64,000 nt of DNA from Spartobacteria bacterium (GTDB lineage Bacteria; Verrucomicrobiota; Verrucomicrobiia; Chthoniobacterales; UBA10450), in contig PLCN01000018.1 in assembly GCA_003134785.1 (NCBI GenBank), positions 62,001 through 126,000 of the forward strand. The letters are read 5' to 3'. Positions 57,172-64,000 of the stretch are shown one piece after another. Numbering within the stretch: position 1 is the stretch's first letter; the number at the start of each line of letters is the position of its first letter. Under the pieces are notes generated by a model. The model had not been told where the DNA came from. It worked only from the letters and a program-made list of their open reading frames with translations, and ran no database searches. The translations under genes were made by a program, and so were the position numbers.

Positions 57172-57753
57172 CTACCCATCGATCTTTGGTTCGAGATAGG
57201 CGAACGATTTCAAGACCTCTTTCAACGCTCCGGCATGCTTACGATAGCTCGCCCCGTCCCTGGCCGAGAGAACAATGTAAGCTACCGCGTGAGGTAGCTG
57301 CACGTAAGCAACCCGCTCGTATTGGGAGTAAGACTTGGTAGGAGCATATTCATTTACAAAGTAGGCCTGTCCATCGCCCGTCTTGCCGGATTCGATTTTT
57401 TGCTTCGGGAGGCCATGTTCCTTCTCCATCTCCTTGATCGCGGTGGCGACGAATGTCTCCACGTCGGTGTATTGCGTGCTGGCGATCCTGGCATACATGA
57501 TCGTTTTGGCGTCGGCCCAGCTCGAACCCTTCGGATAAAGCACGCAGGGCAAACCCTGTTCTGCGCCTGCGCTGTTATCCAGCACCCAACCCTTCGGCGC
57601 GCTGATCTTGAAGGCCGCTTTCGGCCCATAAACTATTCCTCCCGGATAAGTATCCTTGGCTGAAGTTGAGTCGCACCAGGATAGGACAATGACTACAAGG
57701 AGAGCTATGCGCTTCATGAGCATAAGACAAGTATTAGAGGGGCGCGGAATCAA
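57172..57753 (-). CDS. Exported hypothetical protein, third gene of an envelope operon
   Basis: 193 residues from the first ATG; MLMKRIALLVVIVLSW at residue 11 or MKRIALL at 13 (57717) is the better start, giving a signal peptide ending TSA. The mature part has APKGWVLDNSAG and YVQLPHAVAYIVLSARD, a small beta-rich domain also seen in photosystem-type PsbP-like folds, but this is only a resemblance. It overlaps the upstream gene by 4 bases. Confidence 0.6.
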   Translation of the reverse strand: MIPRPSNTCLMLMKRIALLVVIVLSWCDSTSAKDTYPGGIVYGPKAAFKISAPKGWVLDNSAGAEQGLPCVLYPKGSSWADAKTIMYARIASTQYTDVETFVATAIKEMEKEHGLPKQKIESGKTGDGQAYFVNEYAPTKSYSQYERVAYVQLPHAVAYIVLSARDGASYRKHAGALKEVLKSFAYLEPKIDG

Positions 57754-60700
57754 TTACTGGCAACGGCGTTTAACTTTAGCTGATCGCTAAGGTAACTAAC
57801 GAGATAGCGGAGAGGATGCGTACGATCGCCTGGCACCTTCGTTAGAAATAGCTTAAGCCGCAGTGCCGCCGCGGGGCGTGATCGGATCGCGGCGAGCAAC
57901 TCGGCGCGGTTCTCGGCTTTCGCGAGATCGGCGAAAATGTTCGCCAGGCGAACGGCGGCTTCCGGTTGCAGATCCAGTTTCGATTTGTCGTCCAACTGGG
58001 GCAGAGTCAGATCGAGCGCTCGCCCCCAGTCGTGCATGCGCCAAAGCGTCATCGCCCGCAGGTTGCGAACTTCGGCCGCGTAGCGCCCATTCGGAAATCC
58101 GCGATCGTAGTCGTCCAGGGCTCCCAGCACGCGCTTGGGATCGAAGGCTTCTCGCTGATAAGATTTTTGTGTGATGTCGAAAATGTTATCGTTTGGTTCC
58201 GTTCCCGGCGCGGGCATGCCGACATCGCAGAAGTAGGGACGCGAAAGCGCCTGGACCGAGCGGGCGATGACGAAAAGGGCAGCTTCCCGCTTGTGGCTGC
58301 GCGGATATTTCTTCAAAAAATCCCGAGCCATCTCTTCCATTTCGGCGTGATCCCGGGAAGTGTAGGTAGCTTTGCTGTTATCCGCTTTTGGATCTTCAAT
58401 GTCGGTCTCGACTGAAGTTCTCACGCCGGCGGTCAAGCCGATCCGGCTAAACTCGAGGTAATCCGCTACCGGCTGCATAATCGAATTTTTGAGCGCGGCG
58501 TCGATTTCGGCCAGGATGTCTTCGTCTTTCTTTGCGGGAGGATTCAACGTGCCGCTCGGTGGCTCCCAGCCATTGCTCTCCAAGACATCAAACCGGATGC
58601 CGACGTAAATCTTCAGCATCTCGTGGGTGATTTTTGGTTCGGAGAAAAATTGCGCGAGATCGTCGAGGAAGTTCACGCAAATCGCGTCGCTGATGTCGGT
58701 GATGTTTTTCTTCACTAGCGCATCGAGCTCGCGAACTTCCGCGGTCATGGTCGCCGGTTCCGCGACCACGGCCTTTTCCGGCAAGAGGGCGATGCGTTTG
58801 GTGAGATCGTCCCAGGCCGAACGGTCTTGGGAATTGTCTTCAGAGTTCCCCTTTCCGAAAGCGCCGAAGTCATCGTACGGGTAACCAAGAATATTCGCGT
58901 CGCGTCTTGAAGAGGTGTCGTAGTTCTGGTCCTCGAGCTTTGGCGCCGGGGGAAAACTCCAGTAGGCCGCCAGCCGTTTCGCCTCGACCGAATCCGGAGC
59001 TTCCTTGCGGAGCTTTTCGTAAATTTCACGAGAGACCGCTTCGCCTTTTATCTCGCGCGCCAACTGCTCGGCGTATTCCGAAGCGGCCGCGATCCTGGGC
59101 ATTGTTTCCAACGCCTTCCATCGCGCCTGCGCCCCGAGCGGGGTTCCGGGCCGCGCCCGCGCCGCGTTCAACCACCAGCGCGAGGCATGTCGCAGCTCAT
59201 CACGTTGTTCCAGTTCGGTATCGACGTCCTTGAGTCGGAGCGACCGCCCATTGTCGCGGCGCCTCGTCGCATCCAATGAAGTGTAGCGCTTCAGAAAATG
59301 CACCATGGTATCGAGCGGTACGCGCAAGAGCTTGCCACGCGCGTCGGCCCAGGCATTACCCAGGCGGACCATATCTTCCGCCTTCTCCTGCGGCGGACCA
59401 GCAGCGGCGAGCGTCAGCTTTTCGAGATTCTCGGCCACGCGTTTGAATTCTTCCGGCGGCATGAACTTCTTTGCTTCGGCAAAATTTTCCTGCGCCAGGT
59501 AGCGTTCGGCAATGACAGAGCGGATCTCCTTCTTCCCCACCTCGTCGAAGCTTGCGCTATCGACCGCGGTAGCCAGCTCGGTCAACGGCGCAAAATTCAG
59601 CAGCGTATCGATCGCCTGCTGGACCTGATCGAGATCGGCTCCGGAGAGGTTGGGATAGACCGCGCTCTCTTTCAGCTCCCAGGCTTCTTCAGTCTCGGGA
59701 TAAGTTTCCGCGGTCGTGTAGCGCGAGCCTTCAAATGAGGAAACGCTCGAGTCGTCGGGTGCGTTCTCCGTCTCCGTTTCAGTTTCGCTTTCTTCCTCGG
59801 TCTTTGAATCTTTTTCGGTTTCCGGCTTCGCGTCAGTCTTCGTCTCCGGCGGAGTGTGCTGCGCCATCAGAGCCTTCAACTCCGCCACCGCTTCGCCGGC
59901 CTGGTGATTATCCTGCAGCGCGAAGGCAAGACGAAGGCGCACACCGGGCGCCATCGGATTTTTTGGAAATTTCCCCAGAAATTTTCGATAAGTCTCGATC
60001 GCCTCCGCTGCCTTGCCCGCGCGTTGCAGCGCGACCGCGCGCACCATGAGCAGATCGTCGCTGCGCTCGAGCTCCGCCGGCGCAAGATTCGTCAACTGCA
60101 AGGCCTGCTCTTGGTTACCCGATGCGCTCGCAGCCTGCGCCAGCATGGCCAGGTAACGCGGCTGCCAGTCACCCGCTTGATAGATTTGCTTTTGCTTCAC
60201 CACCTCCGCGGCGATGCGCGGCAGTATCGTGCGCCGCCACTTTTTCACATCGGCCGGCTGATCGTATTTTCCGTCGTAGTTCTTCGCTTCCGGCGCGCTG
60301 AGGACAAGATAAGTGAAACCCATCGCAATGCGCGGATGCCGCGCGATCAAGGAAAACGCCGACGCGCTGTCGGGTTTCTCCGCGACGCGGACCAGGCATT
60401 TCTCGCACATGAAAACCGCGGACTTGATCGTCTCCGGATGTCCCGGCGTTTCCGCCTGGGCGATGTAGTATTCGAGCGCCTTGAGATAATTCTCGCCATC
60501 GAATGCCAGCGCGCCGAGCCAGCCGAGCGCGTCCGCTTCAAAGCTGCCTCCCGGATATTGCTTTCGATAACGCTCGAACATTTCCGCGGCTTTCGTGCGC
60601 GCGGGTCCACGCTTTTTGATATCGTCTTCCGTGCGATCGTCCTGCGAATCCATGCCGCGCCGAGATTCCGAAAAGGCACAGCGCGCTTGCATGAAGAGCG

Positions 60701-61364
60701 CGATCTCCGCGCGCGGATGTCTGGGAAATTCCTTCACCACGCGTTCGAACCAGGGCAGACATTCCCTGCGATCGCCACTTCGGTAGCTCGCGGCCCCCAC
60801 CAGGTAGAGCCAGTGAGGCTTGAGCGCTCCCGCCGCCTCGCGCGCCTTTCGCTCCAGCTCCTCCGTGTGAGAGATCGGCTTGGTCGACTCGCTCTCCTCC
60901 GAGCTTTCTGTTCGCGCCGGGGGGTTGAAGACGCCTTTGTTCTCGACGCGCCATTTGATGTAATCCGCGGCCGCGACCTTGTTGTCCGCCGAATGGGTCA
61001 GCACGTCGTGGACATCGTGGAGCAGATTGCACCAGTCGCCTCCACTAGAATAATGCTGCCGCGCCTGGGTTAACAGGCCATCCGCGACAAAGACCAGGGA
61101 TGCCGCGGGTTCTTTGCGCAGGCGCTCGGAAAGCGCGAGAATTTCCTTTGCGAAATCAGGCGTGTCGGTGTCCGAAGGGTGCGCGTCCGTCTCGAGAAAA
61201 ATTTCGCCGAGCGATTTGCCCGGGAGAAAATCGAGAGAATCGCCCACGGACGGCGCCGGCGCGTCGAAGCCATCACCGCCAGTGGCGTAGAGACGGCAAA
61301 GCGGCGCGGCCAGAAAGAAAGCGCCAGTCGCGGCCAGCACAATTATTCGTCGATGTTTTTCCAT
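57750..61364 (-). CDS. Very large exported TPR-type repeat protein
   Basis: 1204 residues. Signal peptide about 1-27. Tetratricopeptide-like helix pairs recur (AAGALKPHWLYLVGAASYRSG, CLPWFERVVKEFPRHPRAE, LDYFIAQAE-like, VALQRAGKAAEAIETYRKFL). An acidic low-complexity stretch (about 505-545) and several long helical blocks follow. It is probably a periplasmic or outer-membrane scaffold. It overlaps the DUF3142 gene by 22 bases and the small gene by 4. Family not identified beyond the TPR. Confidence 0.8.
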   Translation of the reverse strand: MEKHRRIIVLAATGAFFLAAPLCRLYATGGDGFDAPAPSVGDSLDFLPGKSLGEIFLETDAHPSDTDTPDFAKEILALSERLRKEPAASLVFVADGLLTQARQHYSSGGDWCNLLHDVHDVLTHSADNKVAAADYIKWRVENKGVFNPPARTESSEESESTKPISHTEELERKAREAAGALKPHWLYLVGAASYRSGDRRECLPWFERVVKEFPRHPRAEIALFMQARCAFSESRRGMDSQDDRTEDDIKKRGPARTKAAEMFERYRKQYPGGSFEADALGWLGALAFDGENYLKALEYYIAQAETPGHPETIKSAVFMCEKCLVRVAEKPDSASAFSLIARHPRIAMGFTYLVLSAPEAKNYDGKYDQPADVKKWRRTILPRIAAEVVKQKQIYQAGDWQPRYLAMLAQAASASGNQEQALQLTNLAPAELERSDDLLMVRAVALQRAGKAAEAIETYRKFLGKFPKNPMAPGVRLRLAFALQDNHQAGEAVAELKALMAQHTPPETKTDAKPETEKDSKTEEESETETETENAPDDSSVSSFEGSRYTTAETYPETEEAWELKESAVYPNLSGADLDQVQQAIDTLLNFAPLTELATAVDSASFDEVGKKEIRSVIAERYLAQENFAEAKKFMPPEEFKRVAENLEKLTLAAAGPPQEKAEDMVRLGNAWADARGKLLRVPLDTMVHFLKRYTSLDATRRRDNGRSLRLKDVDTELEQRDELRHASRWWLNAARARPGTPLGAQARWKALETMPRIAAASEYAEQLAREIKGEAVSREIYEKLRKEAPDSVEAKRLAAYWSFPPAPKLEDQNYDTSSRRDANILGYPYDDFGAFGKGNSEDNSQDRSAWDDLTKRIALLPEKAVVAEPATMTAEVRELDALVKKNITDISDAICVNFLDDLAQFFSEPKITHEMLKIYVGIRFDVLESNGWEPPSGTLNPPAKKDEDILAEIDAALKNSIMQPVADYLEFSRIGLTAGVRTSVETDIEDPKADNSKATYTSRDHAEMEEMARDFLKKYPRSHKREAALFVIARSVQALSRPYFCDVGMPAPGTEPNDNIFDITQKSYQREAFDPKRVLGALDDYDRGFPNGRYAAEVRNLRAMTLWRMHDWGRALDLTLPQLDDKSKLDLQPEAAVRLANIFADLAKAENRAELLAAIRSRPAAALRLKLFLTKVPGDRTHPLRYLVSYLSDQLKLNAVASN

Positions 61365-62791
61365 TCAAACTCTCCAGGTGCGTTGCGAACGCGGTATCGA
61401 ATCTGATCAAAACTTGCGCCGGCGGCGAGTTGAATCACGCCGGTTCGCCACGATTGCCGCGCGCGCAGGTGACTGAACCAGAAAGTGAGGCGCGTCGCCA
61501 GCGGCACGGCCACTGCCCGACCCGCGCCATCGGGATCGACATGTCCCAGCACGCGCCAAAAATCGCCGTCCTGCGCGTCGCGAAAAATCGGCGCCGGTGC
61601 ATCCAGTTCCAAGGCATAACCGCGATCGAGATCGCTTTTGTCGCTCTCGCCGGAAAGCCTCGGCTCGAGGTCGGCATCGCCGTCGTTGAACAACTCGAGC
61701 TGCTGCGCCGTTTCCGTCTTTCGAACAACAAGATGCGAAGCGGCCTCCAGATGTCCGAGTTGCCGAAGCGACCATCCGCTCGGTGCACTCGAATCCGGCA
61801 GCCGAAAAAAGACCAGTCCACGCGCGCTTGTCTTTTTGGCCTGCGCAATTACGCGAATGAGCCCGGCCCGATCGGGCCAGCGCACCGCGAGAAGCTGATC
61901 TGTTTTCACGGGCGTGTTCGTCACGCGCGTCGGGGTTCGCGCCTTGAAGACTGTTACGCCAAGCACGGTAGGTCGAAACGTGGCGAGCGATTTGTTGAAA
62001 CAGAGATCGTCCCAGTTCCACTCGCGCACATGACCGCGCGATTTTCCGGAGGGATCGAAGAGTGTCACCCGCGCAAAAGCCGGCAGCCCCGCGCGCCAGG
62101 CGATCTGGCATCGGTTCCAATCCGCGAGCGACCGCTCCAGCTTCTCCGGATCCAACAGCGGCAGCGGCGCGGCGCCTTCGACGACGGGGTCCGGCTCGAA
62201 GTCGTAAAGCATCGGCAGCAGCTCATCGACGCTCTGCTCGAGCGCGCGCAAGACCTGGCTTCGACTCCAACCTGGCAGCGCCGTGATACTGAGCCTCGGA
62301 ACGAGCGCGTGGATTTTCTTCAGCGCCGCCGCGTACTCTTCGACCAGGCGATCCGGCGCATCGTAATCAAGCTGGAGTTCATCCGCCCCTTTCGCGACCG
62401 CGGCGAGCGCGCCGAGCAACGATTCGACCGATGTTTTCGAGAACGGAGTTCTCTCGCGCGAGTCGAGCCGAACGACCGGGACGAAACGCAGATCGTCGTT
62501 GCTCTCCGGCAACGGAAAGCGCACTTTCCACCGCCACGTTTCACCGACATTCTCGAGCTCGCCCGTCTGCCAGTAGATCGTCCGCACACCTTGCTCGGAA
62601 AGTTCCGCGCGCTCGGATTCCGATAACGTTTCGCTCCGTTGCCACACCCAAAATGCCATGTCGAACGCGTTCGCCGAGGAGCAGAGCAGTGTCACCACCG
62701 CAGCTATCCCCACTCCATAGAATCCGGAGCGGAATTTCGATTTGATGGTGAGAACGCGGATATTCATTGCGACGAAAAATGGCGCGGGCAT
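61343..62791 (-). CDS. DUF3142 exported protein
   Basis: 482 residues. The N-terminal part (MAFWVWQRSETLSESER, then GVRTIYWQTGELENVG and ELQLDYDAPDRLVEEYA) corresponds to DUF3142, a TIM-barrel-like domain predicted to be glycoside-hydrolase related. The C-terminal part is beta-rich. Signal peptide is around residues 20-40 of this frame (start at 62791 or at the ATG at 62767). First gene of the three-gene leftward unit. No catalytic residue is assignable without alignment. Confidence 0.85.
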   Translation of the reverse strand: MPAPFFVAMNIRVLTIKSKFRSGFYGVGIAAVVTLLCSSANAFDMAFWVWQRSETLSESERAELSEQGVRTIYWQTGELENVGETWRWKVRFPLPESNDDLRFVPVVRLDSRERTPFSKTSVESLLGALAAVAKGADELQLDYDAPDRLVEEYAAALKKIHALVPRLSITALPGWSRSQVLRALEQSVDELLPMLYDFEPDPVVEGAAPLPLLDPEKLERSLADWNRCQIAWRAGLPAFARVTLFDPSGKSRGHVREWNWDDLCFNKSLATFRPTVLGVTVFKARTPTRVTNTPVKTDQLLAVRWPDRAGLIRVIAQAKKTSARGLVFFRLPDSSAPSGWSLRQLGHLEAASHLVVRKTETAQQLELFNDGDADLEPRLSGESDKSDLDRGYALELDAPAPIFRDAQDGDFWRVLGHVDPDGAGRAVAVPLATRLTFWFSHLRARQSWRTGVIQLAAGASFDQIRYRVRNAPGEFEWKNIDE

Positions 62792-62867
62792 GCTGACAAA
62801 CCAGCTCTATTCTCGCAATCATCGCATTCCTAAAGCGGTCGGCAGCTGGTCGATAACCGAATTGAGA

Positions 62868-63485
62868 ATGATGAAAACATTAACCGGCAAAATCCTCACT
62901 CTTTCCGCGGCGCTCTTTTGCGGCACGCTCCTTATCTCCTCCGCGCAGACGACCACGGCAGACAAGGATCTAAAGAAAAAGGAAGCAGAACTGGAGAGGC
63001 AAAAACTGGACCTCGAAAAAAAGAGTCTCGATCTCAAACGCCAGGAACTTGATCTCGAAAAGGCGAAACAGGAATTGCAGTTTCAGGAAACCGGCAAGTC
63101 GATGAGCATGAATTTGGCGGGAGACGTCCTTTTCGACTACAACAAGGCCGCCTTGAAACCGGCGGCGGAAGAGGCGCTGAAAAAGGTCGCCGTCGTTCTG
63201 TCGCTCTTTCCCGAAAGCAACGTGACGGTGGAAGGCTACACCGATTCGAAAGGAGGCAAGGGGGTCAACCTGCAACTCTCACGTGAACGCGCGACCTCGG
63301 TCAAGAACTGGCTGGTCAAGAATGGCGGCGTCGGGCCGGCGCACATTGTCGCGAAAGGATTCGGCGAGGAAAATCCAGTCGCGCCGAACACCAATCCGGA
63401 TGGCACCGATAACATCGTCGGGCGCGCCAAGAACCGCCGCGTCACCATTATCGTCGATAAGCCGGTTACCTCGCCGACGCCGTGA
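62868..63485 (+). CDS. OmpA-family outer-membrane protein
   Basis: 205 residues. Signal peptide about 1-26 (ISSAQ), a coiled-coil of charged heptads (about residues 31-72), and an OmpA C-terminal domain: LFDYNKAALKPAAEEALKKV, VEGYTDSKGG, LSRERATSVKNWLV and GRAKNRRVTIIV. It binds peptidoglycan. ATG 62868 or 62871. Divergent from the DUF3142 gene, with 76 bases between, so possibly related to the same envelope function. Confidence 0.9.
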   Translation: MMKTLTGKILTLSAALFCGTLLISSAQTTTADKDLKKKEAELERQKLDLEKKSLDLKRQELDLEKAKQELQFQETGKSMSMNLAGDVLFDYNKAALKPAAEEALKKVAVVLSLFPESNVTVEGYTDSKGGKGVNLQLSRERATSVKNWLVKNGGVGPAHIVAKGFGEENPVAPNTNPDGTDNIVGRAKNRRVTIIVDKPVTSPTP

Positions 63486-63609
63486 GACTGAGGTAGCACA
63501 GGCATTTTGCCTGTGGGGACGTCAGGCGTCTCGCCTGATGGAAACCGCGAAGGTCAACGGGCGAGACACCCATTGGCCCACACGCAAAATGCCTGTGCTA
63601 CGTCGTCTC
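63483..63609. repeat. Two-part hairpin with arms GAGACTGAGGTAGCACAGGC
   Basis: GAGGTAGCACAGGCATTTTG at 63490 is mirrored by CAAAATGCCTGTGCTACG at the right; GGCGTCTCGCCTGATGG lies inside. It overlaps the stop codons of both flanking converging genes. Confidence 0.8.
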
Positions 63610-64000
63610 AGGATTCTGGTTTATCCTTCAAGTGGATCTCTTTTCCGTCTAAACCTATGTAGACGGTCGTCAGTTTTTTCCCGAGCTCGTCGTAGGTCGC
63701 TTCCCAGCCATGGTAGCCGCCCTTCCTTAGGACCGGCTCCTGGTCCAGGCCATAATAAGTTCGCCGGATAACATTGCCGCGCGGGTCATAGGCCATCTTT
63801 ATTATGGCATAGCCGTCAGGAAAAAGAGCCGGCTTTCCATCCAGGCCGAGGCAGGTGATGGTTACTTCGTTGCCGCGCTCGTCGTACTGCGATTCCCAAC
63901 CATGGTATTTGCCTTCGTCCAGCGCCGGCTCTCCGTTCGCAAGGTGATAGGTCCTTCGGACAAGGTTGTTGTGCGCATCGAAGGTCGCCTTTGCTATGAC
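63608..64000 (-). CDS. YD/RHS-like repeat protein, partial
   Basis: The frame is open to the end of the window (64000), so the start lies outside. The visible 130 residues contain two copies of a unit with YDERGN or YDPRGN, a variable (R)TYxGLD or LxxG part, GLDGKPALF, GY(A/H)GW and YDE. It resembles YD-type repeats found in RHS-like or WG-like proteins, but the class is unsure. The C-terminus ends LKDKPES. Confidence 0.6.
   Translation of the reverse strand, partial: VIAKATFDAHNNLVRRTYHLANGEPALDEGKYHGWESQYDERGNEVTITCLGLDGKPALFPDGYAIIKMAYDPRGNVIRRTYYGLDQEPVLRKGGYHGWEATYDELGKKLTTVYIGLDGKEIHLKDKPES

Follow-up and report, generated by a model that had tools for sequence, protein, structure and literature searches.

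A conserved gene pair of a DUF3142 protein and a large tetratricopeptide-repeat protein in Verrucomicrobiota, possibly a glycan-processing module of the cell envelope

Results

The window analyzed here, a stretch of 64,000 nucleotides from contig PLCN01000018.1 of a Spartobacteria bacterium (Verrucomicrobiota), carries on its minus strand a gene for a protein with a DUF3142 domain (61343..62791, 482 residues) and, overlapping it, a gene for a large tetratricopeptide-repeat (TPR) protein (57750..61364, 1204 residues), which together form a conserved pair that may act on glycan in the cell envelope. An initial annotation had read these two genes and a small third one as encoding three exported proteins of a single complex, and the three minus-strand open reading frames (ORFs) are located as it stated, with profile searches agreeing with the names it gave to the first two. 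The start of the TPR gene overlaps the stop of the DUF3142 gene by 22 bases, exactly as annotated, and for DUF3142 the ATGs at 62767 and 62791 are equally good starts. The signal peptides assigned earlier to all three proteins are plausible by eye, and inspection places the mature start of the TPR protein probably at residue 28 (TGGDGF...). Scans for promoters and terminators returned 3 and 10 sites, against 1.8 and 9.7 in shuffled sequence.

The best named relatives (82% identity in PNAS01000042) place the window genome in the order Chthoniobacterales and hence in Verrucomicrobiota. Relatives of the pair were counted in two genome samples. Within the order, DUF3142 is present in 18 of 147 genomes, with a strong match (E < 1e-40) in 13, and a long TPR partner adjoins the DUF3142 gene in all 13 of the latter, one of which (G096) has the partner on one of two contigs holding pieces of the DUF3142 gene. 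A partner that lacks its N-terminal part was also found at a contig end without DUF3142 (G083). Across the phylum, PF11340, the family profile of DUF3142, matched 48 of 387 genomes (at 49 places, with 47 genomes above the curated cut-off), a profile of the shorter type of partner matched 47 (E up to 1e-8), and the long type matched strongly in 9, three further weak long-type matches to single TPR stretches being left out of the count. A partner is present in 47 of the 48 genomes with DUF3142 and in 8 of the 339 without it (Fisher p = 6.5e-51, uncorrected for relatedness), and rare co-occurrence, which the initial annotation had named as refuting its reading, is thus not what is seen. At 47 of the 49 places the partner is the next gene downstream and on the same strand; the two exceptions are in G230, where DUF3142 sits at a contig end and a partner begins another contig, and in G520, where DUF3142 stands alone and is lipoprotein-like. 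The eight genomes with a partner homologue and no DUF3142 hold C-terminal-only copies (G291, G316 and G443), a contig-end fragment (G274) or divergent proteins (G229, G255, G323 and G420), and the stretches around these eight homologues gave no match to the DUF3142 profile.

A census of gene neighborhoods, in which every ORF of 90 residues or more was clustered across 74 loci and the 30 largest clusters were inspected, found DUF3142 in 74 of 74 loci and a partner in 71 (44 short, 27 long), with every other cluster among the 30 confined to 11 loci or fewer. Two duplicate loci (L144 of L203, and L149 of L202) had been removed, and no other near-identical DUF3142 pair occurred among the 70 sequences located by script. 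Judged by their positions, the remaining large clusters were read either as shadow ORFs antisense to the two genes or as genes of one lineage; among the latter, OPT transporters were present in 4 loci, as was a large nSTAND-type gene. Since no widely shared third gene appears among the 30 largest clusters, the conserved unit consists of two genes. At the junction between them, with start codons picked mechanically, the long-type relatives show an overlap in 20 of 25 cases (19-28 bases in 13) and a gap in 5, while short-type relatives overlap in 33 of 41 (by 4 bases in 13) and are separated in 8; the gaps are short, with one exception of 401 bases. The window has two shadow ORFs of its own on the plus strand, at 59856-61073 and 61100-62626 (405 and 508 residues), inside the TPR and DUF3142 genes respectively, and similar ones recur in the relatives of the census. 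One genome (G358) carries a long-type and a short-type pair (L203 and L165), and a long-type pair with a DUF3142 protein 51% identical lies in a contig labelled Candidatus Acidiferrales, by name Acidobacteriota (L142), so that either the range is wider or the contig was mis-binned.

The partner exists in three forms, a long one of ~1110-1200 residues to which the window protein belongs, a short one of ~640-800 residues and a proteobacterial one of 710-722 residues. In profile-profile comparison with hhalign the short form scores 142.5 and the proteobacterial form 119.5 against the long form, where five sets of TPR decoys score 26.5-75.4; against the short form the proteobacterial profile, built from 3 sequences, scores 76.4 and the decoys 14.3-40.2. 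The decoys were TPR protein sets taken from the weak matches of the long-partner search, and the margin over them links the three forms as probable relatives. A hidden Markov model (HMM) of 41 short partners matched 77 of 3019 ORFs, a figure in which its own training rows and a few duplicated genes are counted, and every match lay on a locus that carries DUF3142. Most long and short partners also bear, directly after the signal peptide, a motif of Cys, Thr or Ser, then Gly, then Pro, Gly or Asp, followed by an aromatic residue; a few lack it. The Cys of this motif often fits a lipobox, and elsewhere the position is held by Thr or Ser.

The window partner itself scores above the thresholds of TPR_2 (29 against 27 bits) and TPR_19 (28.7 against 25), and it passes Pfam YfiO at 52.4 bits, with residues 192-302 as the best stretch. 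It resembles BamD/YfiO and YbgF/CpoB in being built from TPR units and differs from them in its length of 1204 residues; orthology with either was rejected, as the protein falls below the NCBIfam cut-offs for BamD (TIGR03302, 53.2 against 81.4) and YbgF (71.8 against 90.1). Its predicted structure, a long helical superhelix, includes a small insert of four strands and, at model residues 476-531, a linker of low confidence (predicted local distance difference test score, pLDDT, 80.9; predicted template-modelling score, pTM, 0.66).

Other solenoids of this kind occur apart from the pair. Stand-alone paralogues of 838-909 residues with no DUF3142 match nearby were seen at four loci (L246, L247, L249 and L250), all but the first of which start with VDHGD or IDHGD, followed by FPNVNVDAHL, and two genomes (G159 and G463) hold such a paralogue in addition to a normal pair. 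Small lipoprotein-like proteins of 326-353 residues at three further loci (L244, L245 and L248) have kept no more of the short solenoid than its C-terminal third; the next gene in the first two is one that we take to be TatD-like.

The DUF3142 protein scores 34.7 bits against PF11340, above the gathering score of 30. Its AF2 model (mean pLDDT 88.1, pTM 0.85) comprises a barrel and, C-terminal to it, a beta domain that the structure searches hardly probed. The barrel, residues 42-349 (61745..62668, minus strand), is predicted to be a TIM barrel of the glycoside hydrolase family 18 (GH18) type: the best Foldseek match of the model is the spore cortex-lytic enzyme SleL (E 4.7e-12), and VIA aligned the model with a GH18 chitinase and with SleL at Z 19.0, with a root-mean-square deviation of 3.9-4.4 over 272-274 residues.

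GH18 enzymes carry the motif DxxDxDxE with a catalytic Glu. In an hhalign alignment against 8 GH18 proteins from this order (E 5.7e-4), the window sequence DELQLDYDAP, residues 137-146 (62354..62383, minus strand), falls over DGVDIDWEYP, with LQLDYDAP over VDIDWEYP, and its MLYD falls over MTYD, so that both the position of the putative active site and the MxYD motif of GH18 have counterparts. The spelling differs: the window reads DxxQxDxD, with Asp in place of the catalytic Glu and Gln in place of the second Asp. In an alignment of 75 DUF3142 sequences (70 located by script, among which L144 and L203 are one gene, four plasmid proteins and the window, leaving aside five loci in which the script did not pick up the DUF3142 ORF), D142 is invariant and residue 144 is always acidic, Asp in 74 and Glu in 1; at residue 140, the counterpart of the second Asp, 68 sequences have Gln and 7 have Glu. 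The single Glu, in L205 (genome G221), gives VDYE, the GH18 spelling, and by restoring the DxE of that family it supports position 144 as the putative acid.

A search of solved structures with the window sequence alone returned no match. A profile of 25 DUF3142 relatives was required to reach the one member of the family found in the Protein Data Bank (PDB), TfeC of Yersinia pseudotuberculosis (8y6t, 9vtv), which aligns over the barrel core (E 1.2e-10) with the same Q-x-D-x-D site and whose small barrel is also matched structurally by the model of the window protein. TfeC is, in the excerpts available of two reviews, called an antifungal effector or chitinase of type VI secretion system 4 (T6SS4; PMC13162877, PMC13008689). 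In contrast to the window protein it is much shorter, with a PDB sequence of 262 residues, and is described as delivered by the secretion system, whereas the window protein has, by inspection, a Sec-type signal peptide and a gene for a TPR partner.

Relatives of the pair extend to Pseudomonadota. Seven plasmid records match the DUF3142 protein of Xanthomonas, and the annotated neighbors were inspected in four of them. Xanthomonas sacchari has DUF3142 ahead of the partner. The reverse order is found in Novosphingobium, Burkholderia pyrrocinia and Providencia rettgeri, where a small DUF3142 gene follows the partner gene, adjoining it or overlapping with it. That the pair is kept in both gene orders points to function more than to an inherited position. 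In the Xanthomonas sacchari locus (L206:1-5819) the pair is preceded by genes for FecR, a TonB-dependent receptor and another TPR protein, which may hint at glycan uptake. E. coli genomes gave no match to the Providencia pair at the DNA level, a comparison that shows little.

The remaining genes around the pair are local. The third ORF (57172..57753, minus strand) encodes a small, putatively exported protein of 193 residues when read from a TTG, and the 4-base overlap with the TPR gene reported by the initial annotation hinges on that start; the ATG at 57723, followed by a normal signal peptide, is the likelier one and leaves no overlap, and in the sister genome (G091) no in-frame ATG is seen by eye ahead of the corresponding region. 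The protein has no Pfam or NCBIfam match at E up to 1. It was matched in 27 of the 147 genomes of the order and adjoins the TPR gene in the window genome and its sister only. On the plus strand, the divergent gene for an OmpA-family protein (62742..63485) has its probable true start at the ATG at 62868, where it had been placed before; its proposed link to the unit does not hold, as among 21 loci it clusters with a gene of the sister locus (L081) only. Both genes were rejected as members of the conserved unit: the third gene stands beside the pair in 2 of the 13 pair-bearing genomes of the order, the OmpA gene does so only in the window and a single sister, and the 30 largest clusters include neither. 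The sister locus also holds, near the pair, a gene for an nSTAND1-type nucleoside triphosphatase (NTPase) of 1384 residues (L081:12791-16945), and the last ORF of the window (63608-64000) falls into the same cluster, along with genes of L083 and L084.

Discussion

Our findings highlight a conserved partnership between DUF3142 proteins and a family of large solenoid proteins. The initial annotation had proposed a complex scaffolded by the TPR protein, and the part of that proposal which survives is a two-protein envelope module with the TPR protein as its scaffold, which can reasonably be inferred from the co-occurrence of the genes together with their export signals, as judged by inspection. 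On the basis of the models and of analogy with known systems, we propose that the DUF3142 protein and its partner make up an exported module of two genes that processes glycan in the cell envelope, a proposal to which we would give roughly even chances. In such a module the barrel of DUF3142 would cut or grip a polymer containing N-acetylhexosamine, whether peptidoglycan or an exopolysaccharide, and the TPR superhelix would bind the glycan, the DUF3142 protein or both and offer the chain to the barrel, in the way that PgaA, through its TPR domain, may serve PgaB. Translational coupling across the junction could keep the two proteins at matched levels. The lipobox that a strict pattern finds in 17 of 64 anchored relatives and the Sec-type signal that inspection finds in the window protein suggest resident proteins of the envelope rather than injected ones.

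Several observations weigh against this proposal. DUF3142 is patchy in the phylum, present in 48 of 387 genomes, and its association with the partner is incomplete on both sides, as one genome (G520) has DUF3142 alone and eight have a partner homologue alone. The widely shared neighbors in the 30 largest clusters include no gene for a synthase, a porin or another glycan function, though the search did not extend to synthases encoded elsewhere. At the level of the enzyme, the GH18 family profile (PF00704) does not match the protein at E up to 1, PF11340 being its sole match; the hhalign probability of the GH18 alignment is only 29.5% despite its E-value; and the GH18 catalytic Glu is replaced by Asp in 74 of 75 sequences and the second motif Asp by Gln or Glu, so that activity is not assured. 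The model of the TPR protein resembles, among the matches listed, just generic TPR and solenoid structures, which is no evidence either way on the TPR proteins of exopolysaccharide systems. Finally, the HMM of short partners does not reach the window protein at E 1, and the relation of the long to the short form therefore rests on the profile-profile comparison.

The departures from the GH18 motif lead directly to the alternative that stands up best, in which DUF3142 is a pseudoenzyme of the GH18 fold that binds glycan without cutting it and the pair serves as a glycan sensor, tether or adhesin. The change of Glu to Asp at the acid and the Gln at the second Asp are in keeping with such a role, as are several of the structural matches, which are listed as signalling proteins or pseudo-chitinases (SPC-40 and YKL-39, for example). 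Conservation at D142 and at residue 144 is, however, stricter than a pseudoenzyme would need, and TfeC, whose core is likewise QxDxD, is called a chitinase in the excerpted reviews; we regard a purely binding role as somewhat unlikely, though worth keeping in view.

The composition of the pair, a TIM-barrel protein with a large TPR protein, is also that of synthase-dependent exopolysaccharide exporters, and the pair could be an accessory of such an exporter, of the PelA/PelB or PgaB/PgaA type, with its synthase and porin encoded elsewhere. According to the text available from two papers, the TPR region of PgaA raises the hydrolase activity of PgaB and is suggested to bind poly-N-acetylglucosamine (PMC9384988), and interaction with PelB modulates PelA (PMC12022489), so that in both systems an exported hydrolase is matched with a large periplasmic TPR protein that acts on it, as is proposed here. 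A patchy distribution would likewise suit an accessory polymer. The porins of those systems have no counterpart in the window TPR protein, whose model contains no beta-barrel, and the shared neighborhood again offers neither synthase nor porin. We consider an exporter accessory unlikely. For the preferred reading PgaA/PgaB and PelB/PelA remain the nearest working analogues, by a likeness of working, not by membership.

A third possibility takes its cue from TfeC, whose chains are the only ones of DUF3142 found in the PDB and which is described as an antifungal chitinase: DUF3142 would be a chitinase directed against fungi or bacteria, with the TPR protein serving it as chaperone or immunity factor. 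The Sec-type signal peptide of the window DUF3142 protein argues against delivery by a type VI system, and one is seen by inspection on the TPR protein as well; the lipobox of some relatives suits a resident envelope protein; and no secretion gene lies among the widely shared neighbors of the census. An effector system is thus a poor fit, and we hold it to be quite improbable. That all three genes, perhaps with the divergent OmpA protein, build one envelope machine is very improbable indeed, since the gene order that would speak for it is shared only by the window and its sister (G091, locus L081) and the third gene adjoins the pair in so few genomes.

The two-gene glycan module thus remains our preferred reading, and a bolder version of it can be put forward tentatively, one that we think possible and would not yet rely on. 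It holds that DUF3142 is a branch of the GH18 fold that has diverged and has Asp as its acid, that it and its dedicated solenoid form an exported glycan device found in at least Verrucomicrobiota and Pseudomonadota and in both gene orders, and that TfeC would be a specialized member of this group rather than a stand-alone effector.

Literature searches by domain name (DUF3142, PF11340) returned, in the text available, only a listing among clusters that go with halotolerance, and no search for the pair went beyond these two names. This agrees with the earlier statement that no system of such composition has been described, though DUF3142 is not wholly unknown, TfeC having solved structures. The parts are of known kinds; within the scope of those searches, it is the pairing, the spread of the pair and the second gene family that are apparently undescribed.

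In summary, a domain still named as being of unknown function gains a partner and a putative activity that can be tested, and its conserved pairing connects it with large exported solenoid proteins of a family that has no name yet. The pair suggests that the arrangement of a hydrolase on a TPR scaffold, known from exopolysaccharide secretion, may occur with no synthase or porin genes adjacent, and it offers an independent check on how TfeC is read.

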